From Propionibacteriaceae bacterium (GTDB taxonomy: Bacteria > Actinomycetota > Actinomycetes > Propionibacteriales > Propionibacteriaceae), in NCBI GenBank assembly GCA_031266665.1, contig JAISAO010000105.1, positions 1-35,044 on the forward strand: DNA of 35,044 nt, given 5' to 3'. The notes beneath the pieces are model-generated. The model saw nothing but the letters and a program-made list of their open reading frames with translations. It did no database searches and was not told the DNA's origin. Made by a program: the position numbers and the translations under genes. The stretch's first letter is position 1, and every line of letters starts with the position of its first letter. This document shows positions 7,432 through 25,646 of this stretch, piece by piece.

Positions 7432-7647
7432 AAGACTCTGGTCACCAGCATCGATGAGGGATTCGACTTCCTCGGGTTCCGCTTCCAGCGGCAAACCCAA
7501 CAGGGGTCGAACAGGAGATACGTCTACACCTGGCCGTCGAAGAAGTCTCTGGCTTCGGTCAAGACGAAGGTGAAAGCGATCACCACCCAAGAAACCAACC
7601 AACCGTTGTCAGTCATTTTGACCCAACGCAACGGGGTCTTACGAGGT
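7432..7647 (+). pseudogene. ltrA: Group II intron reverse transcriptase/maturase fragment
   Basis: About 72 codons read KTLVTSIDEGFDFLGFRFQR, then NRRYVYTWPSKKSLASVKTK and NQPLSVILTQRNGVLRG. In intact intron-encoded proteins this segment follows the RT palm, where GFDFLGF is typical, and leads into the maturase (X) domain. Both ends are missing: no YADD catalytic box lies upstream and the similarity stops after VLRG. It is a relic inserted against the truncated minus-strand gene. I find no intron RNA domain V/VI downstream. Confidence 0.75.
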
Positions 7648-7777
7648 TCAGACCCAAAATGCAGACACTCCCCATATAACAGCTTACACCGTCAAATCCA
7701 AAGAGCCACTTTTCGATATCACTCCAGAGTTCGGCGACGTTAGGATCGCCAGCCGGGTATCCTCACACTCAGCCAGA

Positions 7778-10767: not shown

Positions 10768-12036
10768 CTACACCTCGATGATCTCCTTGGCGTAGTCCTT
10801 CTTTTTCAGCAGGCTGACCAGTGCGGTGGCGGTCAGCGATGTGCCGATGAACGCGATGTAGGCGCCTGTGGCGCTGCCTGTGGCCGAGCGTAAGGCGGCC
10901 AGGATGACGAAGGCGAAAGAGCGGATGACGCCGACCAGCATGTTGACCACCGACTGAGCCGTGGCGAAGCTGTGGCGGCCGTAGCAGAGCACGGTCATGG
11001 AGGGCTGGAAGTTGGCGTTGCCGCCGATGCTGACGCCGATCATGACGATGCCGACCATCAGCGTCGAAGGCGTGACCAGCATCACGATGGCGATGGCGTA
11101 CCAGATGCCGTAGCACTGCATCGCGAAGCGGGTGCCCCACTTCTGGTCGACGACGCCCCAGAGATAGGAGCCGACGACGCCGATCAAGGCGGCCACTGAC
11201 ATCATGCCGATGGCGCTCATCTGCTCGTAGCCGCGGCTGCCCGTCAGGAACACGACCATCTGAGACATGATGCCGACGTTGGCCATGCCGGAGACGCCGT
11301 AGGTGATGCCGACGATCCACGTCTTGCGCAGCTTAAGGACCTGGAGATACGTCAGCCCGGCATCGCCCGGGGTCTCCGGCGCGCCCACTCGGCCGGTCTC
11401 GTCCGGCTCGTTGTCCGGGAAGCAGCCCGCCGCCTCCGGCGTGTCCTTGACCAGCCCGTGGTTGAAAACCCCGACCACGGCCACGATGCCGGCGAAGACG
11501 TAGAGGGCGTGGGTCACGTTGCCCCTCGGGTCCCAGATCTGGCCGAACTTGGTCAGCAGGTAGGGGATGGAGGCGGAGGCGAAGTTCATGCCCATCGTGG
11601 CGAAGCCGAGCACGAGGCCCTTCTTGCGCGGGAACCAGTTGGCCAGCATGGCGTAGCCGCCGATGACGGAGAAGCAGTTGATGAACGTGATCATCAGCGT
11701 CTCCGTGGCGAAGTACATGACCGTGTTGACGGAGTTCGCGAACGCCACGAGCGAGAACGCGGCCAGGAAGAGCGCCAGGGTCGTCGCCTTCTTCAGGCCG
11801 ATCCGCCGGATCACGAAGCTCCAGAGCGAGGTCAGCACGAGCGCGACCATCGAGGCGGGCGTGGCGATGGCGAGAAGTTGGTCGGCGTCCCAGCCCTTCA
11901 GGGCGGCCAGACCGGGCACGACGATGTTGAGCCCGTCCACGGTCAGGCCGGTCATGAAGTAGACCAGAAGGCCGGAGTAGGCGATCATCGCGCCGCCCTT
12001 GAAACCGAAGTGGTACTTGACTCGCGAGGCGTCCAT
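10768..12036 (-). CDS. MFS transporter (oxalate/formate-antiporter-like), first of two
   Basis: The 422-residue carrier has about 12 hydrophobic helices. FPRKKGLVLGF between helices 4 and 5 is the MFS loop typical of OFA-type carriers for small carboxylates, and a hydrophilic loop (about 195-230) splits the two halves. The frame extends upstream, but the ATG at 12036 follows GGAG and begins MDASRVKYHFGFKG, just before helix 1. It is divergent from the CoA transferase operon and shares the regulatory region 12037-12362, which holds two copies of the cluster's 27-bp motif. It probably imports the acid or diketone substrate or exports an acid product. Confidence 0.85.
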   Translation of the reverse strand: MDASRVKYHFGFKGGAMIAYSGLLVYFMTGLTVDGLNIVVPGLAALKGWDADQLLAIATPASMVALVLTSLWSFVIRRIGLKKATTLALFLAAFSLVAFANSVNTVMYFATETLMITFINCFSVIGGYAMLANWFPRKKGLVLGFATMGMNFASASIPYLLTKFGQIWDPRGNVTHALYVFAGIVAVVGVFNHGLVKDTPEAAGCFPDNEPDETGRVGAPETPGDAGLTYLQVLKLRKTWIVGITYGVSGMANVGIMSQMVVFLTGSRGYEQMSAIGMMSVAALIGVVGSYLWGVVDQKWGTRFAMQCYGIWYAIAIVMLVTPSTLMVGIVMIGVSIGGNANFQPSMTVLCYGRHSFATAQSVVNMLVGVIRSFAFVILAALRSATGSATGAYIAFIGTSLTATALVSLLKKKDYAKEIIEV

Positions 12037-12123
12037 TCCTGGCTCCGTCCTGCCGACACCGCTGTCGCCCCCGCGCCGGTGCGGGGGAGGGGCTCTTGGC
12101 GGCGACATTAGGAGATGCCGTGT

Positions 12124-12150
12124 GCATGGGGAATTGCACGGATCGCATAG
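12124..12150 (+). promoter_or_regulatory. 27-bp cluster motif, copy facing the first MFS gene
   Basis: It follows the pattern GNATNNGGAATNNC, seven bases, GCAT. It lies 87 bp upstream of the MFS start at 12036, with the GCAT end pointing away from the gene, as in the other three copies. It matches the copy at 21084 in 20 of 27 positions. The rest of 12037-12362 (326 bp) has no supported gene. Confidence 0.6.
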
Positions 12151-12265
12151 GCCAGGCGGCAAGGGACCGGTCATGCGCCGCGCCAAGTCCGCCGCCAAGC
12201 GGCGGCGGCGAGATAGCTGCGGCGGGCGAGGGACGGATGCTCGTCTGTCTCGCCACTCGCGCCGC

Positions 12266-12292
12266 TTATGCGGAACCCGGCATTCCCTATGC
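12266..12292 (-). promoter_or_regulatory. 27-bp cluster motif, copy facing the CoA transferase operon
   Basis: Read on the minus strand it has the same GNATNNGGAATNNC...GCAT pattern. It ends 70 bp before the atoD start, the same distance as the thiolase copy. In this copy the inner part is a clear dyad (ATGC, eight bases, GCAT), as expected for a LysR-type activator site. Confidence 0.6.
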
Positions 12293-12362
12293 GCCCCCAA
12301 GGCCCAAGACTCCATCCAGCAAGGCCGGTCACGGACGACCGGCGCAGCCGAGGAGGCCACTC

Positions 12363-13055
12363 ATGGGCAAAGTCGAAGACATCGGCCGGGCCGTGAGCCG
12401 CGTCGCGGACGGGATGACCGTCATGGTCGGCGGGTTCATGGGCTGCGGCAATCCCCACTCCGTGATCGACGCCTTGATCGACGCGGGCACCACCAACCTG
12501 ACGTTGATCTGCAACGACGCCTCCTCGCCCGGCTACGGCGTGGCCAAGCTCGTGGAGCAGAAGCGCGTCACGAAACTCGTCGCCACGCACGTCGGGCTCA
12601 ATCCCGAGGTGGCGCGCCAGATGAACGCGGGCGAACTCGAGGTCGAGCTGATCCCGCAGGGCACGTTCGCCGAATGCATCCGCGCCGCCGGCGCGGGGCT
12701 GGGCGGCGTGCTGACCCCGACCGGCCTGGGCACGCCCGTGGCCGAGGGCAAGCCGACCGTGGAGGTCGACGGCCGCACCTACCTGCTGGAGAAGCCGATC
12801 CGGGCCGACGTGGCGCTGATCGCCGGCAACCGCGTGGACGAGTCCGGCAACATCTGGTACAAGGGCACGACGCGCAGCTTCAGCCCGCTCATGGCGCTGG
12901 CGGCCGACACCGTCATCGTCGAGGCCGATCACCTCCTCGAGGTCGGCGACCTTTACCCGGAGGACGTGGTCACGCCCGGCTGCCTGGTCGACCACATCGT
13001 CGTCTCCACCCACTCGGAGGACGACTTTAACTCGAAACTGGGGTACCCCGAATGA
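12363..13055 (+). CDS. atoD: 3-oxoacid (acetoacetate-type) CoA-transferase subunit A
   Basis: The 230-residue alpha subunit of a class I CoA transferase moves CoA between acyl-CoA and a 3-oxo acid such as acetoacetate. [20 protein letters not shown] near residues 22-41 is the family's CoA-binding glycine-rich segment. Later motifs, [20 protein letters not shown] and [19 protein letters not shown], then LTPTGLGT, are typical of AtoD/ScoA. The start follows GAGGAGG. The open frame extends upstream but is not conserved in character. The gene overlaps subunit B by 4 bp (ATGA), implying coupled translation. In this cluster it would activate the acetoacetate released by the BKACE enzyme. Confidence 0.93.
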
Positions 13056-13723
13056 CTCCCCTGGACCGCAACCAGCTCAAGCGCCACATCGCCGCCCGCG
13101 TGGCCCAGGAACTCCACGACGGCGACCTCGTGAACCTCGGCATCGGCCTGCCCACGCAGGTGCCGGACCACCTGCCGCCGGGCGTCAACGTCTGGCTCCA
13201 GTCGGAGAACGGCATCGTGGGCGCCACCGCCGCCGGCCACAAAGGCCAGCTCATCGACCAGGCCTTTCTGGTCAACGCGGGCGGCCAGCCGACCGGCATC
13301 CACCAGGGCGCGTCGTTCTTCGACTCGGCCACGAGCTTCGCCCTGATCCGCGGCGGCCACGTCGACGTGACCGTCCTCGGCGCCCTCCAGGTCGACGAGC
13401 GGGGCAATCTGGCCAACTGGATCATCCCCGGCAAGATGGTGCCGGGGATGGGCGGCGCGATGGATCTCGTCGTCGGCGCCAAGAAGGTCATCGTCGCCAT
13501 GGAGCACACCCAGAAGGGCGCGCCCAAGATCCTCAAAGTGTGCACGCTGCCGCTGACGGCCACGACCTGTGTCGACCTGATCGTGACGGAGATGGGCGTC
13601 ATCGAGGTCACGGCCGAGGGCCTCGTGCTGAAAGAGATCAACCCGGCCCACACCGTCCAGGACGTCATCGACGCGACCGAGGCCAGGCTGACCGTGGCCG
13701 AGGATCTATGCCCGATGAACTGA
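13052..13723 (+). CDS. atoA: 3-oxoacid (acetoacetate-type) CoA-transferase subunit B
   Basis: The 223-residue beta subunit carries the catalytic glutamate in the SENG motif ([12 protein letters not shown], near residues 47-58), preceded by [17 protein letters not shown]. Further family signatures are [20 protein letters not shown] and [15 protein letters not shown]. The full length agrees with AtoA/ScoB. Together with the upstream gene it forms the heteromeric enzyme. It is followed 46 bp later by an SDR gene on the same strand, probably in the same operon. Confidence 0.93.
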
Positions 13724-13769
13724 CTCCCACCCCGGAGCCTCTGCCAACCAACTCGGAAAGGACGCCCCA

Positions 13770-14534
13770 ATGCCCCAATTACAAGGCCAGATCGCCATCG
13801 TCACGGGTGGCAACTCCGGCATCGGCGAGGCCACGGCCAAGCTGTTGGCCCGCGAGGGTGCCACGGTCGTGCTCTGCGGCCGCCGCGCCGCGGAGAACGA
13901 GCGCGTGGCGGCCGGGATCCGGGCGGCCGGGGGAAAGGCCACGGCCGTGCAGGCCGATGTCTCGACCCCGGAGAGCTGCCGCGCGGTGGTCGACGCCACG
14001 GTCGCCGCTTACGGGCGCATCGACGCGCTCGTCAACAATGCGGGTATCGCCGACAAGCACAAGCCCATCGACGAGTGCGACGAGGCGTGGTACGACGAGG
14101 TCGTGAAGATCGACCAGTACTCCGTCTACTACATGACGAAGTACGCGCTCGAAGTGATGGTGCCCACGGGCCAGGGCTCGATCGTCAACGTGTCGTCGAT
14201 CGGCGCGGGTGGCGTGGCCGGCGTGTCGTACTCGGCGGCGAAAGCGGCCGTCAACGCCATGACCAAGAACATCGCCATCCGCTACGCGCCCACGGGTATC
14301 CGCTGCAACGCCGTCGCCCCGGGCCCCACGCCGACCCCGCTCAACGCGCCGGAGGCGGCGCAATACTTCCACCAGGAGTTCGCGGCGGAATGCGGCAAGC
14401 ACATCGACATCACGCTCCCGACGGCCAGCGCGGAGGACCAGGCCCAGGCGATCCTCTGGTTCGCGGGCCCACATTCCCGCTCGGTGACAGGCCAAGTTCT
14501 CTACGTCGACCACGGCACGAGCCTCTACGGTTAG
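13770..14534 (+). CDS. SDR-family NAD(P)-dependent dehydrogenase
   Basis: The 254-residue classical short-chain dehydrogenase has the Rossmann loop TGGNSGIG (residues 12-19), NNAG (89-92), a serine at 142-143, and YSAAK with Tyr154 and Lys158. VDHGTSLYG is a normal SDR end. It starts after GGAAAGGA. In an operon with atoDA it most likely interconverts a 3-hydroxy acid and its 3-oxo acid, feeding the BKACE enzyme. Reduction of a ring ketone or polyphenol (phloroglucinol reductase is also an SDR) is an alternative that sequence alone cannot settle. The last codons lie in a 22-bp tandem duplication. Confidence 0.9.
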   Translation: MPQLQGQIAIVTGGNSGIGEATAKLLAREGATVVLCGRRAAENERVAAGIRAAGGKATAVQADVSTPESCRAVVDATVAAYGRIDALVNNAGIADKHKPIDECDEAWYDEVVKIDQYSVYYMTKYALEVMVPTGQGSIVNVSSIGAGGVAGVSYSAAKAAVNAMTKNIAIRYAPTGIRCNAVAPGPTPTPLNAPEAAQYFHQEFAAECGKHIDITLPTASAEDQAQAILWFAGPHSRSVTGQVLYVDHGTSLYG

Positions 14535-14565
14535 TCACAACTGCCTCTACTGCTAGTCACAACTG
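14522..14565 (+). repeat. 22-bp tandem duplication across the SDR stop codon
   Basis: Two adjacent 22-bp units (14522-14543 and 14544-14565), each CCTCTAC..TAGTCACAACTG, differ only at positions 8-10. The first contains the gene's true end (Leu-Tyr-Gly-stop). Confidence 0.85.
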
Positions 14566-14586
14566 ATCCGACCCGATGTGGCAAGC

Positions 14587-14614
14587 GGCCCCCGGACGCG
14601 ATGGTCCGGGGGCC
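14587..14614. terminator. Bidirectional terminator hairpin between the SDR and second MFS genes
   Basis: The perfect 11-bp GC stem (GGCCCCCGGAC / GTCCGGGGGCC) has a six-base loop and sits between two convergent genes. No long T run is present, as is common in high-GC actinobacteria. Confidence 0.75.
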
Positions 14615-14627
14615 GCCGGCCGCGCTC

Positions 14628-15977
14628 CTACTCGGCCGTGACCGCTTCGGCGGCCAGGGTTTCGGCCGTGGGCCTCGTGTTCGTCAGGAGGAACAGGACT
14701 ACGCCTATGGCGCCCACTCCTATCAGGATGGTGTAGGGGCCGGCGTAGTTGGGGTTGGCCGGGTCAGGGCCGCCGAAGTGTTGTAGGCCGAAGGCCAGGA
14801 TGCTGGTCGCCAGGGAGCGGACGATGCCCTGCAGCGGCTGGACGACCGCGTTCGCGCCGACGAAGGCGCTGCGGGGGAACTTGTCGGCCACGATTGATGT
14901 GGCCAGGTTCGTGGCGCCGCCGAACGAGAAGCCCAGCATGATCAGCGAGATCCACAAGGTGATCGGGTTGAGCGAGAAATAGGCGTTGATAGAGATCGAG
15001 GCGATCCACCAGCAGGCGTAGACGATGATCGCCTGCTTGGAGACGATCCGGTGGCCCAGCCAGCCCCAGATGAACGCGCCGGGCACGCCGATGAAGGCCG
15101 CGATCGAGAGGTTCAAGACGGCCTGGGACTGCTCGATGCCGATCGACATCTGACGCGGCACCATCTGGCTCATGACGCCGACCAGCATGATGTAGACGCA
15201 GCCCGTGCCGACGGCCATCAGCCAGATGTCCTTCATCTTGAGGAGTTGGAGCGTCGTGTAGGGCGACTTGAAGTTGGCGGCGGCGGCGCGCGAGGCGGCG
15301 ATCTGCTCCGGCGTCATGGGCTCGTTGTCGGGGGTGCGGCCGGCCTGTTCCGGCAGGTCTTTGACGAACAGCAGCACGACGACGAACAACAGCGCCATGA
15401 CGATCGACATGCCCCAGAAGCCCATGGCCGGGTTGTCCGGGCCGGCCAGCTTGATGAACCACGCCAGCAGCGGCACGTAGATGCCGGTCGACATCGTCTG
15501 GCCCATCGTGACGAAGCCCAGAGCCGTGTTCTTCTTGCGCGGGAACCACATGTTGACGAGTGTCAGACCGCCGACGTAGCCGTAGCCCGTGCCGAAGAAG
15601 TTGACGATGGCGTAGGAGGTGAAGAAGCCCACGACCGAGTCGCCGATCATGCCCATCAGCCCGAAGGCCAGGGCGCAAACGATCAGCGAGACGAGGATGT
15701 TGAGCTTCGAGCCCCACTTCTCCGTCGTCTTGGCCAGCACGTAGGCGCCGAGCACGCCGCCGAACGTCGCCGGCGTGGCGGCGTAGAGCAAAGCGTTATT
15801 GTTGATGCCGTAGGCGGCCGACAGGGTCGGCGTGATCAGGTTGAGGCCGTGCGACGCGCTGCCGGCGGCGACGCAGATCAGCAGGCCCTCGATGACGATG
15901 ACGGACCAACCGCGGCGTCCGAAGCTGAAGGCGGAGCCCTTCCTCGGCGGGGCGGCGGGTTGGCTGGTGTTACTCAT
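14628..15977 (-). CDS. MFS transporter (oxalate/formate-antiporter-like), second of two
   Basis: The 449-residue carrier has about 12 helices. FPRKKNTALGFVTMGQT is the loop-and-helix signature shared with the first MFS protein at 10768; a central polar loop (PEQAGRTPDNEPMTPEQIAA) also resembles that protein's DTPEAAGCFPDNEPDE, so the two are probably paralogues. GGAGG lies about nine bases before the ATG. It is the last gene of the minus-strand unit buk-BKACE-ptb-MFS and ends at the terminator hairpin. A role in substrate uptake or short-chain acid exchange is likely; specificity cannot be read. Confidence 0.87.
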   Translation of the reverse strand: MSNTSQPAAPPRKGSAFSFGRRGWSVIVIEGLLICVAAGSASHGLNLITPTLSAAYGINNNALLYAATPATFGGVLGAYVLAKTTEKWGSKLNILVSLIVCALAFGLMGMIGDSVVGFFTSYAIVNFFGTGYGYVGGLTLVNMWFPRKKNTALGFVTMGQTMSTGIYVPLLAWFIKLAGPDNPAMGFWGMSIVMALLFVVVLLFVKDLPEQAGRTPDNEPMTPEQIAASRAAAANFKSPYTTLQLLKMKDIWLMAVGTGCVYIMLVGVMSQMVPRQMSIGIEQSQAVLNLSIAAFIGVPGAFIWGWLGHRIVSKQAIIVYACWWIASISINAYFSLNPITLWISLIMLGFSFGGATNLATSIVADKFPRSAFVGANAVVQPLQGIVRSLATSILAFGLQHFGGPDPANPNYAGPYTILIGVGAIGVVLFLLTNTRPTAETLAAEAVTAE

Positions 15978-16021
15978 GAATTGAAGCCTCCGACTTCCTG
16001 GTGGGTGGTGTGGGCATGGGT

Positions 16022-16929
16022 CTACTCCTTCGTGGGTTGGCTGAGCGCGCAGCAGAGGATGATCGAGTTGAGCTTTTCCGCGGCCCCGGCGGAGCGGGAG
16101 GTCAGCCCCACGGGCACACGGGCGCCGATGAGGCAGCCGGCGAGGGAATTGCGGGGGTCCGCGTTCCAGATCTTCGACATGATGTTGCCGGCCACCATTT
16201 CGGGCACGAGCAACAGGTCGGCGTCGCCGGCGTAGGGGGAGTCGTACTCCTTGATCCGGGCCGATTCCTCCGACGTGGCGAGGTCGTAGGAGATCGGCCC
16301 CACGACCACGGCGTCGCCGAACTCCCCGGCCTCGGCCGCCTCACGAGGGCGGCGGCGTCAACAGTCTCCGGCATCTTGGGGTTGACGACCTCGACGGCCG
16401 CCAGGGCGGCCACGATGGGCCGTGCGAAGCCGATGGTGTGGAGGGCCGCGACACCAGCGGCGACGATCTTCTTCTTCGCCGCCAGGTCGGGGTACGGGAT
16501 GATGGCCGAGTAGGACATGGCCAGCAGCTTGTGGTAGCCGGCGATCCGCATCAGCCCGAAGTGCGTGATGAAGCCGGAGTCGTTCAGCCCGGTCGACTTG
16601 TCCAGGATCGGCTTCATCAGGTCACGGGTTTGGAGATGGCCCTTGAGGATGAAGTCGGCCTCGCCCGCGCGCACCAGTCGCACGGCCACGGCGGCCGGGT
16701 TCTCGCCCTCCGTGCAGGCCACGCTGCGGTGCTCGCCGGAGAGGCCGAGCCGCTCGATCAGCGCCGCGATGGCCGCGGGCTGGCCGATCAGCACGGGCTC
16801 GACGTAGCCCCCGTCGGCGGCCGCGAAGACCGCCTCCAGGGCGTGCTCGTCGGCCGCGCCGGGCACGGCGTAGCGGCGCCGTCCCCCGGCCAGGGCCACC
16901 GCCCCCAAGTCGTCGAAGCTCGTGATCAT
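16022..16929 (-). pseudogene. ptb: Phosphate butyryltransferase, interrupted by a one-base frameshift
   Basis: The enzyme converts acyl-CoA and phosphate to acyl phosphate plus CoA. The first part (from ATG at 16929) reads ADFILKGHLQTRDLMKPILD, NDSGFITHFGLM, VAALAAVEVVNPKMPETVDA. Near 16343-16350, after AALV, the frame breaks. The continuation in the next frame (EAAEAGEFGDAVVVGPISYD, then DADLLLVPEMVAGNIMSKIW, GLTSRSAGAAEKLNSIILC) is the normal family C-terminus and stops at 16022. A single lost base restores one protein of about 300 residues, the family's usual length. Either a sequencing error or a very recent mutation explains it, since both halves are well conserved. It lies 11 bp after the BKACE gene. 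Confidence 0.85.
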
Positions 16930-16940
16930 CGTCGTGTCCC

Positions 16941-17810
16941 TCAGAGCTTCGCGCGGGTCTCGGCGACGAGTTCGGTGTCGCCGCGCAGGCCGAGGATCTG
17001 GCGGGCCTCGGCCGGCGTGGCCGGCTCCTGGCCGAACTCGGTGATGACGCGGACGGCGCGCTCGACCAGCGCGGGGTTGGTCGCCAGGACGCCCTTTGAG
17101 TAATAGACGTTGTCCTCCAGGCCGACGCGCACGTGGCCGCCCAGGGCGAGTGTGGCGTACATGATCGGCAGGTGGCCGCGGCCGATGCCGAAGGCCGACC
17201 AGGTCGAGCCCTCCGGGATTAGGCGCTTCAGATGCACGAGGTTGTCGACCGTGGCCGCGAGCCCGCCCAGCACGCCCAGCACGAACTGGAAGTGGAGCGG
17301 CGCCACGAGGATGCCCTTCTTGGCGTAGTACTGCGCGATGCCGATGTGGCCCGTGTCGAAGATCTCCAACTCCGGCTTGATGCCGAGGTCGCGCTCCACG
17401 GTGCCGAGCTTCTCCAGGAAGGCCGGGCTGTTCGTGAAAACGCCGTCCGGCATCCAGTTGAACGAGCCGGAGTCGTAGGAGGCGATCTCGGGGCGGACGA
17501 GCGGCAGGTGGGCCATGCGCTCGTCCTCGGTGGCCCGGTGGTCGCCGGCGGTCGTGCAGTTGATCACGACATCGCAGTCCTGCCGGGCGGCGATGCGTTG
17601 CACGGTGTCGACGAACTTGGCCTTGTCCATCGTGCCGAGGCCCTCGTCGTCGCGCATGTGGAGATGGACGATCGCGGCGCCAGCCCGCCAGCAGGCGTAG
17701 GCGTCTTGGGCGATCTCCTCCGGCGTGATCGGGATGTGGGGATTGAGGGATTGCGGGGTGACGGCGCCGGTCAGCGCGGCGGAGATGATCACCTTGTGGT
17801 TGAGATCCAT
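16941..17810 (-). CDS. Beta-keto acid cleavage enzyme (BKACE, DUF849)
   Basis: The 289-residue zinc enzyme condenses a beta-keto acid with acetyl-CoA and releases acetoacetate plus a new acyl-CoA. By comparison with 3-keto-5-aminohexanoate cleavage enzyme (Kce), the metal ligands are His49 and His51 (HLHMRD) and Glu232 (VRVGLEDN), with Arg228 and Asp233 as catalytic residues. Other family motifs are INCTTAGDH, YDSGSFNW, LEIFDTG and PLHFQFVLGVLGG. The ATG at 17810 follows AAGGAG; the longer frame is not credible. It stands between buk and ptb. Family substrates include 3-keto-5-aminohexanoate, dehydrocarnitine and 3,5-dioxohexanoate; neighbouring genes favour a dioxo acid here. Confidence 0.92.
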   Translation of the reverse strand: MDLNHKVIISAALTGAVTPQSLNPHIPITPEEIAQDAYACWRAGAAIVHLHMRDDEGLGTMDKAKFVDTVQRIAARQDCDVVINCTTAGDHRATEDERMAHLPLVRPEIASYDSGSFNWMPDGVFTNSPAFLEKLGTVERDLGIKPELEIFDTGHIGIAQYYAKKGILVAPLHFQFVLGVLGGLAATVDNLVHLKRLIPEGSTWSAFGIGRGHLPIMYATLALGGHVRVGLEDNVYYSKGVLATNPALVERAVRVITEFGQEPATPAEARQILGLRGDTELVAETRAKL

Positions 17811-17898
17811 CGTGGGCTCCTTGAGGTTGTGGTTTGGCGGGCGGCCAGGGCGACAGGCCTCGCGGCCCCAGGCCACGTTGCCAGTCCCCCCGGCCTGG

Positions 17899-19023
17899 TC
17901 AGGCGTAGGTGCTGGGGCGGGCGAGAATCTCCTCGTAGGAGGAGTAGCCCGGCGGGAGGACGTCGTAGTCCTGGATGGGTTCGAGGCCGGCGAGCACGCG
18001 CTCGGCGCCGGCGGCGAGGGCCTCCATCTCGCGTTCGCCGGGGATGATCGTGACCGGGGCGATGAACTCGACGAGTTCCGTGATCCGGCCGGTGAAGAGC
18101 TGGGAGTGGGCGACGCCGCCGGTCAGGATGATCTGGTCGACGGCCCCGGCCCGGACGACGGAGAGTTCGCCGATGCCCTTGGCCACGCCGAGGGCCATGG
18201 CCTCGTAGACGAGCCGAGCCCGCTCGTCGCCGGCCGCGATCATCGCCTCGACCTGGCGCACGTCCTGCGTGCCGAACCAGGCGGCGAGGCCGGACTGGGC
18301 GGCCAGGTAGACACGCAGTTGGGCGTGGTCGAAGCCGGACTCGTAGCAGAAATCCGCCAAGAAGCGGTTGGGGATGCGGCCCGCGCGTTGGGGCGACAGC
18401 GGACCCTCGTCGTCGTAGATCCAGTCGGCCACGCGGCCGTGGTCGTGGAACGCCATCGTGATGCCGCCGCCCAGTTGGACGATGATGAGGTTGAGGTCCG
18501 CGTAGCTTTTCCCGATGGACTCGGCGTATTCGATGCCTGCGGCCTTCGGGTTGAGAAGGTGGAAGACCGGCAGGTTGGCGATCTCCGGGATGCCCGTGAT
18601 CTTGGCCACGGGGTCGACGCAGTCGACCGGGGTCGGGTCGTAGATGATGACGGGAACGCCCGAGCCGCCCGCCAGTTCGACGCCGATGAGGGAGCCGAGC
18701 GAGGAGGCGTGCTGGGCGGGCGGGGCGTACTTCTGGGTGGCGACCATGAGGTCGTTGACCCTGTAGGCGCCGCCTTTGGGGACGTGGTGGATGCAGCCGG
18801 CCCGGGCCACGATCATGTCGAGGGTGGCGGGCTCGATGGCGTGGTCGTGGAGGAAGTCCGCCACCTGGGCGCGGCGGTATTCGAGTTGGTCGAGCACCAG
18901 GGGCGTCTCGGCCAGCACGGCGGCCGGCACGTCGAGCGAGCGCTTGTCGATCATGGCGCCGTCGTCGAAGTAGGCCACCTTGGTCGAGGTCGAGCCGCAG
19001 TTGATGGCGAGTATCCTGGTCAT
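17899..19023 (-). CDS. buk: Butyrate kinase (acetokinase family)
   Basis: The 374-residue enzyme makes ATP from an acyl phosphate. The N-terminus ILAINCGSTSTKVAYF is the acetokinase phosphate loop. ARAGCIHHVPKGGAYRVNDL, QHASSLGSLIGVELA, DPVAKITGIP, LNLIIVQLGGGITMAFHDHG and QIILTGGVAHS are the conserved butyrate kinase blocks in the right order. Family proteins are usually about 355-360 residues; the extra length is a short C-terminal tail. AAGGAG precedes the start. It opens the minus-strand unit and is divergent from the LysR gene 53 bp away. With ptb it would give substrate-level phosphorylation; acetate, butyrate or branched acids are all possible products. Confidence 0.93.
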   Translation of the reverse strand: MTRILAINCGSTSTKVAYFDDGAMIDKRSLDVPAAVLAETPLVLDQLEYRRAQVADFLHDHAIEPATLDMIVARAGCIHHVPKGGAYRVNDLMVATQKYAPPAQHASSLGSLIGVELAGGSGVPVIIYDPTPVDCVDPVAKITGIPEIANLPVFHLLNPKAAGIEYAESIGKSYADLNLIIVQLGGGITMAFHDHGRVADWIYDDEGPLSPQRAGRIPNRFLADFCYESGFDHAQLRVYLAAQSGLAAWFGTQDVRQVEAMIAAGDERARLVYEAMALGVAKGIGELSVVRAGAVDQIILTGGVAHSQLFTGRITELVEFIAPVTIIPGEREMEALAAGAERVLAGLEPIQDYDVLPPGYSSYEEILARPSTYA

Positions 19024-19046
19024 GCTCCGCTCCTTGAGTTCTCGTA

Positions 19047-19060
19047 GTGCGCCGGCGCAC
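19047..19060. promoter_or_regulatory. 14-bp palindrome between buk and the LysR gene
   Basis: GTGCGCCGGCGCAC is perfectly self-complementary and lies 16 bp before the LysR start and 23 bp before the buk start. It may be an autoregulatory site. It does not resemble the 27-bp motif of the other cluster promoters. Confidence 0.4.
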
Positions 19061-19076
19061 AGGCAGTGAGGCCCCG

Positions 19077-19979
19077 ATGGATCTGAACCCGCTCCGGTAC
19101 TTCCAATTCGTCGCGCTCTACCGCAATTTCTCGCGGGCGGCCGAGCACTTCTACATCTCCCAGTCGGCGCTGAGCCGCCAGATCGCGGGCCTCGAAGCCG
19201 ACCTGGGCGTGCAGTTGTTCGAGCGCGACACGCGCTCGGTCTCGCTGACCGACGCCGGTCGCGTGCTCTACGAGCGTTGCGACCTTCTCCTGACCCACTA
19301 CGACACGATCCTCGAACTGACCAAGGCGGCCGGCCAGGGGGCCGCGGGCACGCTGACGATCGCCGTCATCGCCTCGTTCCGCCACGTCTACCTCGACTTG
19401 GTGGGGGAGTTCAGGCGGCGCTTCCCGGGGGTCGAGACCGTGACGGAGGAGATCGCGTTCGACGCGCTGTCCGACGCGGTCGCCAACGGCGTCTACGACG
19501 TGGCCTTCACCCTCGACTTCATGGTGCCCTACCACGAGCAACTGGAGTCCGTCGAGGTCATGAGGGACCGGATGGTGGTGGCCGCGCCGGCCGCCCTCGG
19601 GCTGCCGGGCAAGGTCAAGCCGGTGGACCTGCTGCCCCACCCGGTGATCATGAACCGTCACGGCGTGCCGCCGATCCTGCGGCGGCTGCGCGTGGCGGCC
19701 GCGGAGCGGGGCGGCAGCGCGTCGGGCAGCGTGACGCTGGTCCCGAACACGCCGTCCGCCCTGCTCCAGGTCAGCCTGGGCCGTGGCCTCAACCTTCTGC
19801 CGAAGCAGGTGCTGGAGCACTACGGGGACGTGCCCCACATAACCGTCAGCGAGATCGACGATTCCGAGGCGGCCTGCGCCTTCGTGCTGGTGCGGCGCAA
19901 GGACCGCGAGTCCAAGACGATCGACAACTTCGTGGCCCTCGTGCGCGAACAGCGCCGTTTGGGGCGTCTGGGGCGCTGA
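19077..19979 (+). CDS. LysR-family transcriptional regulator
   Basis: The 300-residue regulator starts at the ATG at 19077 (GAGG five bases upstream), giving MDLNPLRYFQFVALYRNFSR. Residues 4-62 form the LysR helix-turn-helix (SRAAEHFYISQSALSRQIAG, LEADLGVQLFERDTRSVSLT, DAGR). The rest is the periplasmic-binding-like effector domain (GTLTIAVIASFRHVYLDLVG through GRGLNLLPKQVLEHYG). It is divergent from the buk unit and lies inside the catabolic cluster, so it is the obvious pathway regulator. The four 27-bp motifs upstream of other units are its most likely targets. The inducer would be a pathway intermediate. Confidence 0.92.
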   Translation: MDLNPLRYFQFVALYRNFSRAAEHFYISQSALSRQIAGLEADLGVQLFERDTRSVSLTDAGRVLYERCDLLLTHYDTILELTKAAGQGAAGTLTIAVIASFRHVYLDLVGEFRRRFPGVETVTEEIAFDALSDAVANGVYDVAFTLDFMVPYHEQLESVEVMRDRMVVAAPAALGLPGKVKPVDLLPHPVIMNRHGVPPILRRLRVAAAERGGSASGSVTLVPNTPSALLQVSLGRGLNLLPKQVLEHYGDVPHITVSEIDDSEAACAFVLVRRKDRESKTIDNFVALVREQRRLGRLGR

Positions 19980-20036
19980 GCCTGTCGTCCTGGTCATGGC
20001 CGTGGGTCCTTGGGCGTTGGGATTGGCGACAGACCA

Positions 20037-20969
20037 CTAGACTTCTTCGCCGGCTTCGATCCGGGCGCGGATCTTGGCCTGCATCGATTCCTTGGTCTCG
20101 CCCTCGGGGAGGCCGACGTTGCCCTTGTAATTGGGCCTGATGCCGAGGTGCTCGTTCATCGACGGCATGAAGGAGTGGGCCTGCTCGTGCTCGGTGAACA
20201 TGCCGAACATTTCCGTGCCGAACGCCATGTCGAGGTCGTCGACGATCTGCTGCTTCCACGGCCGGCGGATGATCTGCGTGTTGAGGCGGCGCATCACGCG
20301 CGGCTGCTTGATCAGCCGGTCGGCGATCTCGTGGGCGCGGTCCATCAGCTTCTCGCGCGGCACGATCTCGGAGACGAGGCCGTACTGGAGGAGCTGCTCA
20401 GAGGTCATAACGTCGCCCGTCATGAGATACCAGGCGGCCATGCGCGGGGGCATGAGGCGCATGAAGCAGGAGTGGATGCCGTCGCCGAACACGTTGCCGA
20501 CGAGCACATGCGGGTCGCAGATCTTGAGATCGTCGGCGGCGATGGCGAAGTCGCACATGAGCGCGAGCTCGGAATGCCCGCCGGAGCCGGACAACACGCC
20601 GATGGTGGGGACTTCCACGTCCTGAATCTGCGCGATGAGCATGCGGCGGCCGTCGACGAACATGTGGTCGTAGCGGCAGGCGGCCGGGTCGATCGTCTCG
20701 GCCAGCCAGGACTCGGCCTCGAAGTCCGTCACCCAGGCCTCCTCCGTGCCGGTGAAGATGATGAGTTCCGTGTCACGGTCCGTGCCGAGCAGACGCCACA
20801 TCTTGCCGATGGCGTCGTGCATCTCCATCGACCAGATGAGCGGTCCACCCTTGGTGTGCATCTGGACGGTGACGATCCCGTTGTCGGTCCGCGTGATGTG
20901 GAAAATCTCCGAGAACATGTCCTGGATCTGCTCGAACGTGGGCCATTTGACGAACTTGGCGTTGGTCAT
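20037..20969 (-). CDS. Crotonase-superfamily hydrolase, resembles 6-oxocamphor hydrolase (beta-diketone hydrolase)
   Basis: This 310-residue crotonase-fold protein would normally be called an enoyl-CoA hydratase, but details fit the C-C-cleaving 6-oxocamphor hydrolase (OCH) better. GIVTVQMHTKGGPLIWSMEM (31-50) parallels OCH 'VTVHTEGKSLVW'. In OCH the catalytic pair is His145 and Asp154; here PHVLVGNVFGDG places His154 and Asp163 at the same spacing of nine, in the same block before a conserved LMTG. Typical hydratase glutamates are absent from these places. OCH hydrolyses cyclic 1,3-diketones by retro-Claisen cleavage. A C-terminal extension of about 50 residues (after 258) is unexplained. 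A cluster motif lies 114 bp upstream. Confidence 0.75.
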   Translation of the reverse strand: MTNAKFVKWPTFEQIQDMFSEIFHITRTDNGIVTVQMHTKGGPLIWSMEMHDAIGKMWRLLGTDRDTELIIFTGTEEAWVTDFEAESWLAETIDPAACRYDHMFVDGRRMLIAQIQDVEVPTIGVLSGSGGHSELALMCDFAIAADDLKICDPHVLVGNVFGDGIHSCFMRLMPPRMAAWYLMTGDVMTSEQLLQYGLVSEIVPREKLMDRAHEIADRLIKQPRVMRRLNTQIIRRPWKQQIVDDLDMAFGTEMFGMFTEHEQAHSFMPSMNEHLGIRPNYKGNVGLPEGETKESMQAKIRARIEAGEEV

Positions 20970-21083
20970 GGCGGTGTGCCTTTCTAGAAGGGGCGGCGGT
21001 GCCGCCGACTGATGGAGAGAGTCCGAAGGTCCGGGCTGCTGTGCCTGTCCTAGGCTCTGATTTCAGGCTAGAACCGGTCCGGT

Positions 21084-21110
21084 GGATGAGGAATTGCCGA
21101 AAACGCATAG
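21084..21110 (+). promoter_or_regulatory. 27-bp cluster motif, copy facing the crotonase gene
   Basis: It has the GNATNNGGAATNNC...GCAT pattern, in the same orientation relative to its gene as the other three copies. It lies 114 bp upstream of the crotonase start at 20969, in a 184-bp gap that also holds the thiolase's likely terminator. Confidence 0.6.
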
Positions 21111-21119
21111 ATAGGGGGT

Positions 21120-21148
21120 GAGACAGGCGACCGGCGCCTTTCTGTCTC
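21120..21148 (-). terminator. Hairpin just downstream of the thiolase gene
   Basis: The arms GAGACAG and CTGTCTC, with an inner partly paired GGCG/CGCC core, begin 6 bp beyond the thiolase stop in its direction of transcription. It would isolate the thiolase from the crotonase promoter. Confidence 0.45.
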
Positions 21149-21153
21149 GCGGG

Positions 21154-22302
21154 CTACACCGTCTGGATCATTCCGGCGGCGCCCATGCCGCCACCGACAC
21201 ACATCGTGATCAACGCCTGACCGCCCCCTTTACCCCGCAGCTGCTCGATCGCCTTGATCGTCAGCACAGCACCGGTCGCGCCCAACGGATGCCCCAGGGC
21301 CAAAGCCCCACCCTGCACATTGACCCGCTGGTACGACACCCCGAGCTCCCGCAACACGGCGATCGACTGGGAAGCGAAAGCCTCGTTCAACTCGATCACA
21401 GCGATGTCGCCCAGCGTCCGCCCCAGGCGCGCCAGGAGCTTGGGCACAGCGACCACAGGCCCGATGCCCATATAGGCCGGATCGACCCCGGCCACGGCGA
21501 AGCCCGTGACACGGGCCAGGGGAGTCGCGCCGATGGCCTCCGCCTTGGCCTGGGACATGACCACGACGAAGGCCGCGCCATCCGACCGCGGCGAGCTCGT
21601 GCCGGCTGTCACCAGGCCGTCCTCTCCGAAGGCGGGTTTGAGCTGGGCCAGTTTCTCGGCCGAGGTTCCGGCGCGGACGCACTCGTCGCGCGTGACGGTG
21701 ACGGGAGAGCCGTCTGGTGCCTGACCCGTCACGGGCACGATCTGCCGGTCGAAAACACCGGCCTCCTGGGCGGCGGCCGCGCGGGCGTGGGACTCCACGG
21801 CCATCGCCTCCATCTCGGCGCGCGTGATACCCCACTGCCGCGCCACGTTGTCGGCCGTCAGGCCCATCGGGATGTAGGCCTCGGTCTGTTCGAGCAGGTA
21901 CGGGTCCTGGTACTGCGGGTTGTCGGAGAGCACGGGAGTCGACATGTGCTCCACGCCGCCCGCCACGATGACATCGCCCATGCCGGCGTCGATCAGCGCG
22001 GAGGCCGTGGCGATGGCTTGGAGCCCGGAGGAGCAGAATCGGTTGACGGTGAGGCCGGATACGACATCCGGCAGCCCGGCCCGGAGCACGATATTGCGCG
22101 CCGGGTTGAGCCCGAGCCTCGCCTCCGGCAGCGCGCAGCCGACGATGACATCGTCGATCTCGGCCGGATCGAGCCCTGGCAGGCGCTCCACGACGCCGCG
22201 GAGCACCTCGGCGCCGAAGTCGACAGGATGGGTCTGGGCAAGTGAGCCCTTGACGCCGCGGGTCACGGCGCTGCGGCCGTAGCCGACGATCACGCTGGTC
22301 AT
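21154..22302 (-). CDS. Thiolase (acetyl-CoA acetyltransferase type)
   Basis: The 382-residue protein cleaves acetoacetyl-CoA with CoA to two acetyl-CoA, or the reverse. The acylated cysteine lies in NRFCSSGLQAI, the active-site His in NVQGGALALGHPLGATG, and the second Cys in MCVGGGMGAAGM. ELNEAFASQ supplies the conserved NEAF block. Length is normal. The start follows GGAAGGA. It is the last step needed to turn the acetoacetyl-CoA from the CoA transferase into acetyl-CoA, which the BKACE enzyme also consumes. It has its own promoter region with a copy of the 27-bp motif 70 bp upstream. Confidence 0.92.
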   Translation of the reverse strand: MTSVIVGYGRSAVTRGVKGSLAQTHPVDFGAEVLRGVVERLPGLDPAEIDDVIVGCALPEARLGLNPARNIVLRAGLPDVVSGLTVNRFCSSGLQAIATASALIDAGMGDVIVAGGVEHMSTPVLSDNPQYQDPYLLEQTEAYIPMGLTADNVARQWGITRAEMEAMAVESHARAAAAQEAGVFDRQIVPVTGQAPDGSPVTVTRDECVRAGTSAEKLAQLKPAFGEDGLVTAGTSSPRSDGAAFVVVMSQAKAEAIGATPLARVTGFAVAGVDPAYMGIGPVVAVPKLLARLGRTLGDIAVIELNEAFASQSIAVLRELGVSYQRVNVQGGALALGHPLGATGAVLTIKAIEQLRGKGGGQALITMCVGGGMGAAGMIQTV

Positions 22303-22399: not shown

Positions 22400-22467
22400 G
22401 TGTCAGCCTGGCCCCGGAAATCGCCGCAGCCATCAAGAGCTTCGGCTCCACCCGCCTCAATCGTCTG

Positions 22468-22540
22468 TGGAGCCGACCGGACTCGAACCGGCGACCCTCT
22501 GCTTGCAAAGCAGATGCGCTACCAACTGCGCCACGGCCCC
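22468..22540 (-). tRNA. tRNA-Ala (anticodon TGC)
   Basis: The 73-nt gene has the acceptor arm GGGGCCG pairing with CGGCTCC (one G-T pair), the D-loop GCGCAGTTGGTAGCGC, the anticodon stem-loop CTGCTTTGCAAAGCAG with TGC in the loop, and the T-arm GCCGGTTCGAGTCCGGT. The CCA end is not encoded. In actinobacteria this tRNA often lies next to a DLW-39 gene, as here. Confidence 0.97.
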
Positions 22541-22961: not shown

Positions 22962-25646
22962 GTGACCTTCAACCGCCGCAGCGACCCCGAATACACCAGT
23001 CGCGACGACTGGATTTTCGACACCATGCTGGCGATCTTGTCCGTCGTGCTGGTATTGGCGCCGTACTTGGTGGTGATCGCGTTCTACGCGCCGGCCGTCT
23101 CGGGCCGCGCTCTGGCCGCCGCCGCCGTCATTGGCTTGGCCCTCAGCGCCAGCGTCGTCCTGCGCCGCCACCACCCCATGATCTGCCTCATCTTGGTGGC
23201 GGCTCTGACCGTGCTCCACGTCGTCTTGGTGCCCATCCCGTTCGCCTTGTTGCTGCTGGTGCCCGTCACCGTCCACGCGGTCGCCCGCTATGTCCGCGAC
23301 GGTGTGCTATGGATCTTGTTCTTCTGGGTGCCGGCGGCCATCGCCGCCACTGTGCGCTGGTATCTGGCCTTCACGCCCACGAACGCCTTGCGCCTGGTGG
23401 CCATGTTCGGCGGTGTGACCTTCGTCGGGGCCGTCCTGGCCGCTTACACCGTCGGCCGGCGGGGCTATGACCTGGCCGCCGCCCGCGACCGCTCCTTCGC
23501 CCAGGAGTTGGATCTGGCTCGTCAGGAGTGGGCCGGCTCGGCGGGCGGGGCCACCGCCGCCGTGGCCCCGGCGGCCGAGCTTTACCAGACCTACGCCGAC
23601 CGGGTCTCCCAGATCGTCGCCCGGGCGGACCAGGCCAAGACCCTCATCCGCCGCCACCCGGCCGAAGCTTCCAGCACCATTGAGAGCGTTGCCCGAACCG
23701 GCCGCGACCTGCTGTCCGAATTGCGCCGGTCCGCCGTCCGCGAGGTCGACCGAGGGCAGACGGGCGCCAGTGATTGGCCCGACAGCGGGCCGGAGCCGCT
23801 CCAGCCCGATCCGGCCAGCGGTTGGGATGAGACCGATCAGGCCTGGCCGGACGAGGCCTGGGGCAACGCCGATACTTGGGCGCGGACGGGCCAGTTCAGC
23901 CCGGCCGGCGAGACGGACGACTGGGGCGCCGACGCCGCCGGGGACCGGGATTGGGGCCGCGCCAGCGCCGCTTGGCCGGAGGTCGAGGCTTGGGATCAGA
24001 ACCCGGAAGCGGCCTCGGACTCGGAGTGGGGCCGTGCTGACGCCGCTTGGCCGGAGGTCGAGGCTTGGGACCAGACATCGGAAGCAGCCTCGGACTCGTA
24101 TTGGGGTCCGGCGGCGGCCGCTCCGGCCGGCACCGGAGCCGATGACTCGGAGGCTGGTCGCGCGGTCGAGCGGGCGCGGACGACGGCCGACTGGGACGAA
24201 GACACCACCTGGGACGACCAGACCGCGGCCAGTCCCGTCATCGCCGGGGACTGGTCCGGCGACGGCGCTGGAGCCGACTTGGCTGACGCTCACGACACCG
24301 GCTCGGCCGGCTCCGCGACCGACTGGCCCAACGCCTTAGAGGCGGACTGGACCGGCGGCTTAGAGGACGGACGGGCGGCGCCGCCTCAGACGGCCCAGGC
24401 GGATGTCGCGGCGGAGGAGACGCAGGAACACCTGCCGGGCGAAACCCTGGACGAGTTGCCGGGACTGGTCCGTCGGGCCGGCGCCGAGTTCCACTTCAAC
24501 CGTCGACCGCCGGCCGAGGCCGACGCCGTTATCGGCTTCTCGATCTACCGCATCGTGGCCGAGGCCCTGACCAACGTCCGGCGCCACGCCGGCCCCGGCG
24601 CCCCCACCCAGGTCTATCTGGACTGGGGCGACGACGATGTTGAACTGTCGGTGGTCAACCAGCCGACCGACTTCCAGGCCCCGCCCTCGACCACGGGAGG
24701 CGAGGGTCTGGACACGATGGCCGAACGGGCCGAGGCCGTCGGCGGCCTCTTGGAGACCGGTCCCACCGCCGAGGGCGGCTTCCACGTCTGGGCCAGCCTG
24801 CCCTATGACTGGGAGATCGACCAGGCGGCCGCCGTCGAGGCCGCCGCCGTTCCGGCCGACCAGCGGGGGACCGGCCAGTCCGGGGCCGCCCAGGCCCAGG
24901 GCGCCGACGTTGTGGCCGATCAGACTTGGGGTGCCACCACTGTCGGAGCCGGTCCCGACCAGGGCGCCGGTCTGGCGGGGGCCGCCGTCGGCTCTGAGAC
25001 CGCCGCCGGAGACGACTTCGACGCCGGGTCCCCCGCTGATCGGACCGCTGTTGGCGCCGCGACCGCCGATGAGTGGGACTCCGCCGATGAGTGGGACTCC
25101 GCCGCCGACTGGGCTTCTGCCTCCGACTGGGACTCTGCCGATTCCACGGCTGAGGCCGATTGGGACGCCGCCGATTCCCCGGCCGTCGCTGAGTGGGGGG
25201 CCGCCGATTCCCCGGCCGTCGCCGAGTGGGACGTCGATTCCACGGCTGAGGCCGATTGGAGCGCCCCGGCGGACTCCGTCGCCGACTGGGAGGCCGCCTC
25301 GCCCGGCGTTGCCCACTGGCCGGCCGAGACGACCGCCGGTTGGGCCGATAATCTGTCCACCCCTCCGCCCGCCCCGGTCAACGCTTATAGCCCAGACCTG
25401 ACGACCTCCTACGCCCAGTCAGACATCGATCGGATCGGGTCGCGGCGCCCCGCCGACGATCACCGTGAGGCCGTGGCCGCCGATTGGGCCGCCGCCCAGA
25501 TCGAGCCGCGGACCGCCGCCCAGACGGACGACTGGGGGGGCGACACCGCCTTTTGGACGACTGCCGATTGGGCCGTGCCGGGAGCGGATGACTGGTCCGA
25601 CGAGGCCTTGGCCTGGTCCGGTCATCCCGCCAGCGGGCGGCACTGA
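22962..25646 (+). CDS. Histidine-kinase-like membrane protein with Trp/Asp repeats and no phosphoacceptor His
   Basis: The 894-residue protein starts at GTG. Residues 20-165 contain about five membrane helices, as in NarL-type sensor kinases. About 200-258 align with the HisKA_3 dimerisation helix, but the usual ELHD-VVAHHLS reads ELYQTYADRVS, so Tyr208 replaces the phosphoacceptor. Residues 258-495 are a low-complexity insert rich in Trp, Asp and Ala. Residues 495-615 form a HATPase_c domain with an N-box (IVAEALTNVRRHA) and GGEGLDTMAERAEAVGG. The last 280 residues are again Trp/Asp repeats (ADEWDSADEWDSAADW). No response regulator is adjacent. It may act as an ATP-binding scaffold rather than a kinase. 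No good ribosome site precedes the GTG. Confidence 0.75.
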   Translation: MTFNRRSDPEYTSRDDWIFDTMLAILSVVLVLAPYLVVIAFYAPAVSGRALAAAAVIGLALSASVVLRRHHPMICLILVAALTVLHVVLVPIPFALLLLVPVTVHAVARYVRDGVLWILFFWVPAAIAATVRWYLAFTPTNALRLVAMFGGVTFVGAVLAAYTVGRRGYDLAAARDRSFAQELDLARQEWAGSAGGATAAVAPAAELYQTYADRVSQIVARADQAKTLIRRHPAEASSTIESVARTGRDLLSELRRSAVREVDRGQTGASDWPDSGPEPLQPDPASGWDETDQAWPDEAWGNADTWARTGQFSPAGETDDWGADAAGDRDWGRASAAWPEVEAWDQNPEAASDSEWGRADAAWPEVEAWDQTSEAASDSYWGPAAAAPAGTGADDSEAGRAVERARTTADWDEDTTWDDQTAASPVIAGDWSGDGAGADLADAHDTGSAGSATDWPNALEADWTGGLEDGRAAPPQTAQADVAAEETQEHLPGETLDELPGLVRRAGAEFHFNRRPPAEADAVIGFSIYRIVAEALTNVRRHAGPGAPTQVYLDWGDDDVELSVVNQPTDFQAPPSTTGGEGLDTMAERAEAVGGLLETGPTAEGGFHVWASLPYDWEIDQAAAVEAAAVPADQRGTGQSGAAQAQGADVVADQTWGATTVGAGPDQGAGLAGAAVGSETAAGDDFDAGSPADRTAVGAATADEWDSADEWDSAADWASASDWDSADSTAEADWDAADSPAVAEWGAADSPAVAEWDVDSTAEADWSAPADSVADWEAASPGVAHWPAETTAGWADNLSTPPPAPVNAYSPDLTTSYAQSDIDRIGSRRPADDHREAVAADWAAAQIEPRTAAQTDDWGGDTAFWTTADWAVPGADDWSDEALAWSGHPASGRH
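23952..24101 (+). repeat. Two 75-bp tandem units in the kinase-like gene
   Basis: Units start at 23952 and 24027 and encode the repeated segment WGRA(S/D)AAWPEVEAWDQ, ending EAASDS. A partial third unit follows. These repeats build part of the Trp-rich insert. Confidence 0.8.

Follow-up and report, generated by a model that had tools for sequence, protein, structure and literature searches.

What does a fermenting actinobacterium do with a block of eleven genes in which a relative of the diketone hydrolases lies close to a beta-keto acid cleavage enzyme (BKACE) and a butyrate kinase? The block occupies part of a 35,044-nucleotide contig from a Propionibacteriaceae bacterium (assembly GCA_031266665.1, contig JAISAO010000105.1), the whole of which we refer to as the window and which is contig 24 of a 106-contig, 3.28 Mb host genome that is 94.2% complete. 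A sequence-only reading of the window had proposed an eleven-gene route at 10768..22302 that resembles the later steps of phloroglucinol degradation, an interpretation that our analysis partly supports. From comparison with known families we propose, with moderate confidence, that the block encodes a regulated fermentative module that would yield acetate and butyrate from a cyclic 1,3-diketone, for which dihydrophloroglucinol or something closely similar is the most likely candidate. All eleven genes were located by open reading frame (ORF) calls and Pfam and NCBIfam profile searches:

10768..12036, minus strand: major facilitator superfamily (MFS) carrier 1 (Pfam MFS_1, 94 bits; likely ATG start at 12036)
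12363..13055, plus strand: CoA-transferase subunit A, AtoD type (TIGR02429, 230 bits, cut-off 128.5; ATG at 12363)
13052..13723, plus strand: CoA-transferase subunit B, AtoA type (TIGR02428, 298 bits, cut-off 243.6; ENG motif glutamate present)
13770..14534, plus strand: short-chain dehydrogenase/reductase (SDR; profile match; also conserved in both G202 and G203; falls apart from the cluster phloroglucinol reductase clade)
14628..15977, minus strand: MFS carrier 2 (Pfam MFS_1, 97 bits; two copies in G203)
16022..16929, minus strand: phosphate butyryltransferase (Ptb; frame break at roughly 16.33 kb)
16941..17810, minus strand: BKACE, likely a triacetate acetoacetate-lyase (Pfam, 346 bits)
17899..19023, minus strand: butyrate kinase (Buk; TIGR02707, 345 bits, cut-off 289)
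19077..19979, plus strand: LysR-type regulator (divergent from Buk across a 53-base gap; in the same place in all six loci that reach this far)
20037..20969, minus strand: crotonase of the 6-oxocamphor hydrolase (OCH) / beta-diketone hydrolase family, the proposed ring-opener
21154..22302, minus strand: acetyl-CoA C-acyltransferase (thiolase; TIGR01930, 426 bits, cut-off 241)

Both CoA-transferase subunits exceed their NCBIfam cut-offs and belong to the 3-oxoacid CoA-transferases. Buk likewise exceeds its curated cut-off and is a butyrate kinase.

In the proposed route, the OCH-type crotonase would open the ring by CoA-free hydrolytic retro-Claisen cleavage to yield 3-hydroxy-5-oxohexanoate, and the SDR would oxidize the 3-hydroxyl to give 3,5-dioxohexanoate (triacetate). 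The BKACE would react triacetate with acetyl-CoA to form acetoacetate and acetoacetyl-CoA, and the CoA-transferase and thiolase would return acetyl-CoA. Part of the acetoacetyl-CoA would be converted to butyryl-CoA by Hbd, Crt and acyl-CoA dehydrogenase of the host, from which Ptb and Buk would form butyrate and ATP. The chemistry of the ring opening and of the BKACE step is predicted from what is known of the two families; we infer the substrate, the order of the steps, what the SDR does and where the ring-reduced substrate comes from.

Sequence, tree position, predicted structure and catalytic residues all mark 6-oxocamphor hydrolase and beta-diketone hydrolase as the nearest characterised relatives of the window crotonase, which upholds the earlier description of an OCH-like enzyme. 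Among the structural matches listed are 6-oxocamphor hydrolase and Anabaena beta-diketone hydrolase (ABDH) (1o8u, 2j5g), with approximately 25% identity over the aligned structures. The module crotonases form a separate 100/100 clade that is nested in neither reference's own clade. This tree was rebuilt without a 158-residue outgroup (branch >5), OUT_L004, L039 and L040; with these included, the window row fell in none of the starred sets. The available part of the ABDH report gives the catalytic residues as H43, H144, D153 and E243 (PMC3584854). H51, H154 and D163 of the window crotonase align with the first three of these, and E253 aligns with OCH E244, which was taken as ABDH E243. Across the 18 crotonase rows of alignment A4, H132, H154 and D163 are present in every row and E253 in 14. 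CoA-independent retro-Claisen hydrolysis of a C-C bond would thus be the expected activity, as far as family and residues can predict it. Alignment of the window enzyme to a pair of short-chain enoyl-CoA hydratases shows that it retains the first glutamate (E134) and has His154 in place of the second, at the columns that we take to be E144 and E164. These two residues are named as the catalytic glutamates of 1ey3 in the part of the report available (PMC3584854). The absent second glutamate, the sequence and the tree placement disfavor an ordinary enoyl-CoA hydratase.

A related clade of crotonases, 39-43% identical, was found near ORFs that resemble halves of a transketolase by eye (L064, L065 and L066), with a 3-hydroxyacid-dehydrogenase-like ORF, also recognized by eye, close by in L064 and L066. 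A different ring substrate seems likely for this clade.

The BKACE is likely a triacetate acetoacetate-lyase, an assignment that draws on its closest relative and on its predicted specificity site. A search of a plasmid collection with the window BKACE returned a 58% match in an unannotated 2.6 Mb record of Acetoanaerobium noterae (L087), whose ORFs were called in this analysis. The surrounding genes encode an SDR, a 3-hydroxyacyl-CoA dehydrogenase, a PF04199 cyclase and the BKACE (Trp at the specificity site); there is also a weak DAPG-hydrolase match (22.1 bits, cut-off 22.7) and a chalcone isomerase, then Ptb, a 2-oxoacid oxidoreductase and Buk. This cluster and those of Novosphingobium (L097) and Mycobacterium (L101) are called phloroglucinol-type by gene content alone. 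The six module BKACEs form the sister group of the A. noterae enzyme (96/95, 59% identity) in a tree of 19 rows; the tree omits L061, a row read in the wrong direction in alignment A2, and G126, which is near-identical to G127. Two Kce enzymes fall elsewhere, so the grouping with aminohexanoate enzymes that the sequence-only reading had set as a counter-case is not seen. For its other counter-case, dehydrocarnitine, the answer is partial: the BKACE of L091, which lies beside quaternary-amine transport genes, is also placed elsewhere, in a tree that holds no characterised dehydrocarnitine enzyme. The available sections of the Clostridium scatologenes study report that Kce Glu14, which binds the substrate amino group, corresponds to Trp16 in the triacetate enzyme of that organism (PMC10470551). 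The equivalent residue is Val or Ile in all six module BKACEs, Val17 in the window, and is W, I and I in three BKACEs of phloroglucinol-type clusters. Val17 in place of Glu14, a score of 306 bits against the Kce cut-off of 382, and the tree placement together disfavor identity as Kce.

The neighborhood recurs in other genomes. BKACE, Buk and Ptb occur together in all seven loci with a module-type BKACE, namely the window, G202, G203, G126, G127, G183 and L024 (a Dactylosporangium metagenome-assembled genome, MAG), and both CoA-transferase subunits lie within the same block in each; in the window, two other genes separate these subunits from Ptb. A divergent LysR gene and an OCH-family crotonase are found beyond Buk in all six loci whose contig extends there, the G202 contig stopping at Buk and not being counted. 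The crotonase of G203 is an 84% relative of the window enzyme; because the G183 crotonase is only approximately 33% identical to that of the window, this association covers two divergent enzymes. Nine pairwise gene comparisons gave ratios of nonsynonymous to synonymous change (dN/dS) of 0.12-0.28; a tenth, covering the latter half of Ptb, was dropped because misaligned frames had saturated it. The block is a conserved module and not a chance neighborhood.

Among 198 genomes of the family, seven had a BKACE match at E <= 1e-60, and six of these, the window's included, showed at least 67% identity and contained the module; the 18 other genomes listed under the window's genus had no match at this threshold. 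Only the window itself reached 1e-85 among 394 class-sampled genomes. Crotonase searches of the same two sets, again counting the window, reached 1e-30 in 7 of 198 and 1e-28 in 16 of 394, and the 18 same-genus genomes held no module-type crotonase. A scan of public contigs returned eight loci, four of them with crotonases of 72-85% identity. Of the crotonase matches from these searches, those placed in alignment A4 were the ones taken forward. One short contig (L022, 4.2 kb) carries the crotonase and LysR and gave no matches to BKACE, Buk or Ptb. A single sample series, Gsp477, which we take to be from termite gut, supplied the MAGs of two of the closest named relatives.

The seven loci fall into two sub-types. 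The window, G202 and G203 carry the SDR, and no phosphotriesterase (PTE)-family or ene-reductase homologue was found in the window contig or in the G202 (5.3 kb) and G203 (14 kb) stretches. G126, G127, G183 and L024 carry a PTE-family gene between BKACE and Ptb, and no homologue of the window-type SDR was seen in the stretches read of these four. The PTE-family genes are 57-67% identical to the G183 copy, and Pfam PTE was confirmed for G127 and G183. The best solved relatives of the G183 protein are phosphotriesterase-like hydrolases (307 bits), including DR0930 (294 bits), which we take to be a delta-lactonase. An FMN/Fe-S ene-reductase, whose copies are 71-78% alike, is encoded as well in three of the four PTE-type loci (G126, G183 and L024); for the remaining locus, G127, the reading covered 20 of its 29 kb. 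The best solved relative of the G126 ene-reductase is NCR (258 bits), presumably a dearomatizing 2-naphthoyl-CoA reductase, and its best NCBIfam score is below cut-off.

Several other redox ORFs were observed around these loci. A 1029-residue ORF of G183 (L062, 5414-8500) joins an OYE-type ene-reductase half to a vinyl-phenol-reductase-like flavoprotein half. NADH-dehydrogenase-like Fe-S proteins with a GltD-like half, together with a VprA-like flavoprotein, lie beside the module in L036 (55-2831) and L037 (11415-12983), which hints that an enone or aromatic substrate may be supplied with electrons. By eye, an HSP90-like ORF lies within the module of G126 (L068, 44-1903), adjoining thiolase.

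The PF04199 cyclase (DPGC) had no match in the host genome at its 94.2% completeness, in a search whose control matched 8 of 14 genomes. The host does encode an Hbd with 73% identity to the G183 enzyme, a Crt-like hydratase, and an acyl-CoA dehydrogenase next to which lie genes for a butyryl-CoA:acetate CoA-transferase-like protein, a FixC-like protein and a thiolase; two ORFs between the genes of this region read by eye as Fix/Etf subunits. Separate Pta and AckA genes are present. Several of these host genes score under equivalog cut-offs, and the scores do not fix their exact substrates. In principle, the predicted enzymes could take acetoacetyl-CoA to butyryl-CoA, the usual substrate of Ptb and Buk. 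The module's Ptb and Buk need not be required for acetyl-CoA.

The window SDR was rejected as a phloroglucinol reductase, as the tree does not place it in the clade formed by four cluster phloroglucinol reductases, themselves labelled by gene context. Elsewhere, in G165 (L040, 9466-15258), a distant OCH-family crotonase lies near an ADC-family protein and an SDR that does join the phloroglucinol-reductase clade (98/96), a possible independent pairing of an OCH crotonase with a reductase of this type.

Family membership, the conserved neighborhood, the kinship of the BKACE, the butyrate-type genes and the lack of a match to the known cyclase family are read from the sequences; a number of points weigh against the step from these to the proposed pathway. 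In the crotonase, the E253 position is Gln in 4 of 18 rows, and Phe161 of the window is Pro in all 17 other rows. In Actinotalea (L025), 20.9 kb of sequence carries a 73% identical crotonase and LysR and shows no match to BKACE, Buk or Ptb. The kinship with A. noterae leads to a cluster recognized by gene content in an unannotated record, and function may differ at 59% identity. BKACEs are described as promiscuous in the available part of one study (PMC4922564). The BKACEs of two clusters that do neighbor a cyclase (L097 and L101) are placed elsewhere in the tree, and five of eight BKACEs from other contexts also have Ile at the specificity site, so function cannot be read from either the clade or the site. 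The window BKACE also scores below cut-off on both relevant NCBIfam models, Kce (306 bits, the best model) and 3,5-dioxohexanoate (229 bits, cut-off 430); the A. noterae enzyme shows the same pattern (324 and 228 bits), and these scores are therefore no argument against the window BKACE. No phloroglucinol reductase is seen in the block, whose sole SDR lies outside that clade, and no genome-wide search with a phloroglucinol reductase was made. The ene-reductase of the sister loci has no close homologue in the host genome (best 31%); the best host match to the sister-locus PTE is 30%. Ptb, listed by the sequence-only reading as a gene of the ATP route, stands as a family match and is broken in this assembly: the long ORF at 16102-16929 matches Ptb only to approximately residue 197, and the remainder is encoded in a different frame ending at 16022. 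This interruption is either an assembly error or a real frameshift, and Ptb is unbroken in all four aligned relatives (L035, L063, L024 and L039). The A. noterae kinship strengthens the resemblance to the later steps of phloroglucinol degradation beyond what the sequence-only reading could see.

Other routes were weighed against the same evidence. OCH-family enzymes act on several cyclic diones, and the substrate could be another cyclic 1,3-dione, such as 1,3-cyclohexanedione derived from resorcinol or alkylresorcinol. The crotonase would then form a 5-oxo acid, the remaining genes would finish a later beta-keto acid, and Ptb and Buk would use the acyl-CoA product of the BKACE directly. The NCR-related ene-reductase and PTE-family hydrolase of the sister loci would suit a six-membered 5-oxo or 5-hydroxy acid, and the hydrophobic BKACE site many neutral beta-keto acids. 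However, the BKACE is closest to an enzyme of a phloroglucinol-type cluster and, because 5-oxohexanoate is not a beta-keto acid, would be idle unless extra steps intervened; we consider this route rather unlikely. Open-chain catabolism of the deoxyribonate type, in which the SDR makes a 3-keto acid from a beta-keto or sugar acid, the BKACE cleaves it and the crotonase is unrelated, has a precedent in a putative Pseudomonas simiae operon of SDR, BKACE, lactonase and two MFS genes, with thiolase also required (PMC6365646, in the part available). The PTE-family gene of four sister loci would fit such a scheme. It is nonetheless improbable, as it leaves unexplained a crotonase conserved in six of six loci that reach it (one a distant homologue), no window-SDR homologue was seen in the stretches read of four of seven loci, and a glycerate kinase is not among the eleven genes.

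A redox-free opening is conceivable, in which the crotonase converts the trione form of phloroglucinol to triacetate in one step and the PTE-like enzyme of the sister loci re-opens triacetic acid lactone. This would account both for the lack of a ring reductase beside the window genes and for a lactonase-like gene in four loci where no window-type SDR was seen. Phloroglucinol is strongly aromatic, however, the published routes reduce it first (PMC10470551, available sections), and the SDR of three loci would be left idle, making this very improbable. Lysine fermentation through Kce, with cleavage of 3-keto-5-aminohexanoate feeding butyrate formation, has Kce as the best NCBIfam model and the butyrate-type genes with Ptb and Buk in its favor, and is scarcely credible given the sub-cut-off score, the Val or Ile in place of the amino-binding Glu in six of six module enzymes, the tree placement beside the A. 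noterae enzyme, and the lack of any aminomutase or ammonia-lyase gene among the eleven.

A wider reading can be put forward more tentatively. A crotonase-type ring-opener may replace the Mn-dependent cyclase, as a second, independently recruited anaerobic opening of polyphenol-derived rings in an actinobacterial, phloroglucinol-type fermentation. This fermentation would have two sub-types, one with the SDR and one with the PTE-family, delta-lactonase-like enzyme plus, in three of four PTE-type loci, the NCR-like ene-reductase as a possible ring reductase. The available text of PMC10470551 describes a ring-opener of anaerobic phloroglucinol degradation that has been defined genetically, together with a survey of genomes made by seeking that enzyme, and mentions crotonase only in a reference title. 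If the crotonase does the same job, surveys based on the ring-opener overlook whole lineages, some Propionibacteriaceae among them, and the OCH family gains a role in fermentative catabolism. Open-licence PMC text returned no article pairing oxocamphor hydrolase with diketone, which is no proof of novelty, and the titles and abstract starts of the open-licence resorcinol literature held nothing on an OCH-type enzyme.

Around the block, a tRNA-Ala gene lies at 22467-22540, with 165 bases between it and the start of thiolase. This site may be where the block was acquired, because the tRNA adjoins it and the 18 same-genus genomes have no module-type BKACE or crotonase; among the 20 largest of 42 repeat families, no integration repeat touches the tRNA. 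By eye, an ORF at 7342-7743 of the window resembles the tail of a group II intron reverse transcriptase, and one at 22962-25646 is sensor-kinase-like with a long repetitive Trp/Asp/Ala-rich stretch.

Compared with known systems, the module shares CoA-transferase and thiolase steps, an MFS carrier and butyrate-type energy conservation with the phloroglucinol cluster of C. scatologenes, as described in the available part of PMC10470551, and with the A. noterae cluster of the same content, whose BKACE is sister to that of the module and which has Ptb and Buk nearby. The C. scatologenes cluster uses a Mn-dependent cyclase and a 3HCDH-type dehydrogenase, whereas the module has an OCH-type crotonase and an SDR; it also has a LysR regulator, and no phloroglucinol reductase was recognized in the block. 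Kce belongs to the same BKACE family, and acetyl-CoA-dependent cleavage would be expected of both, although the window enzyme lacks the amino-binding Glu and occupies another place in the tree. The deoxyribonate operon shares SDR, BKACE and MFS content and the use of a thiolase with the module; the available part of that study (PMC6365646) names no OCH crotonase or Ptb-Buk pair, whereas the module has both. With 6-oxocamphor hydrolase and Anabaena beta-diketone hydrolase (1o8u, 2j5g) the window crotonase shares its fold, its catalytic residues and, as would be expected, CoA-free retro-Claisen chemistry, but it stands in a clade of its own and in a fermentative gene context.

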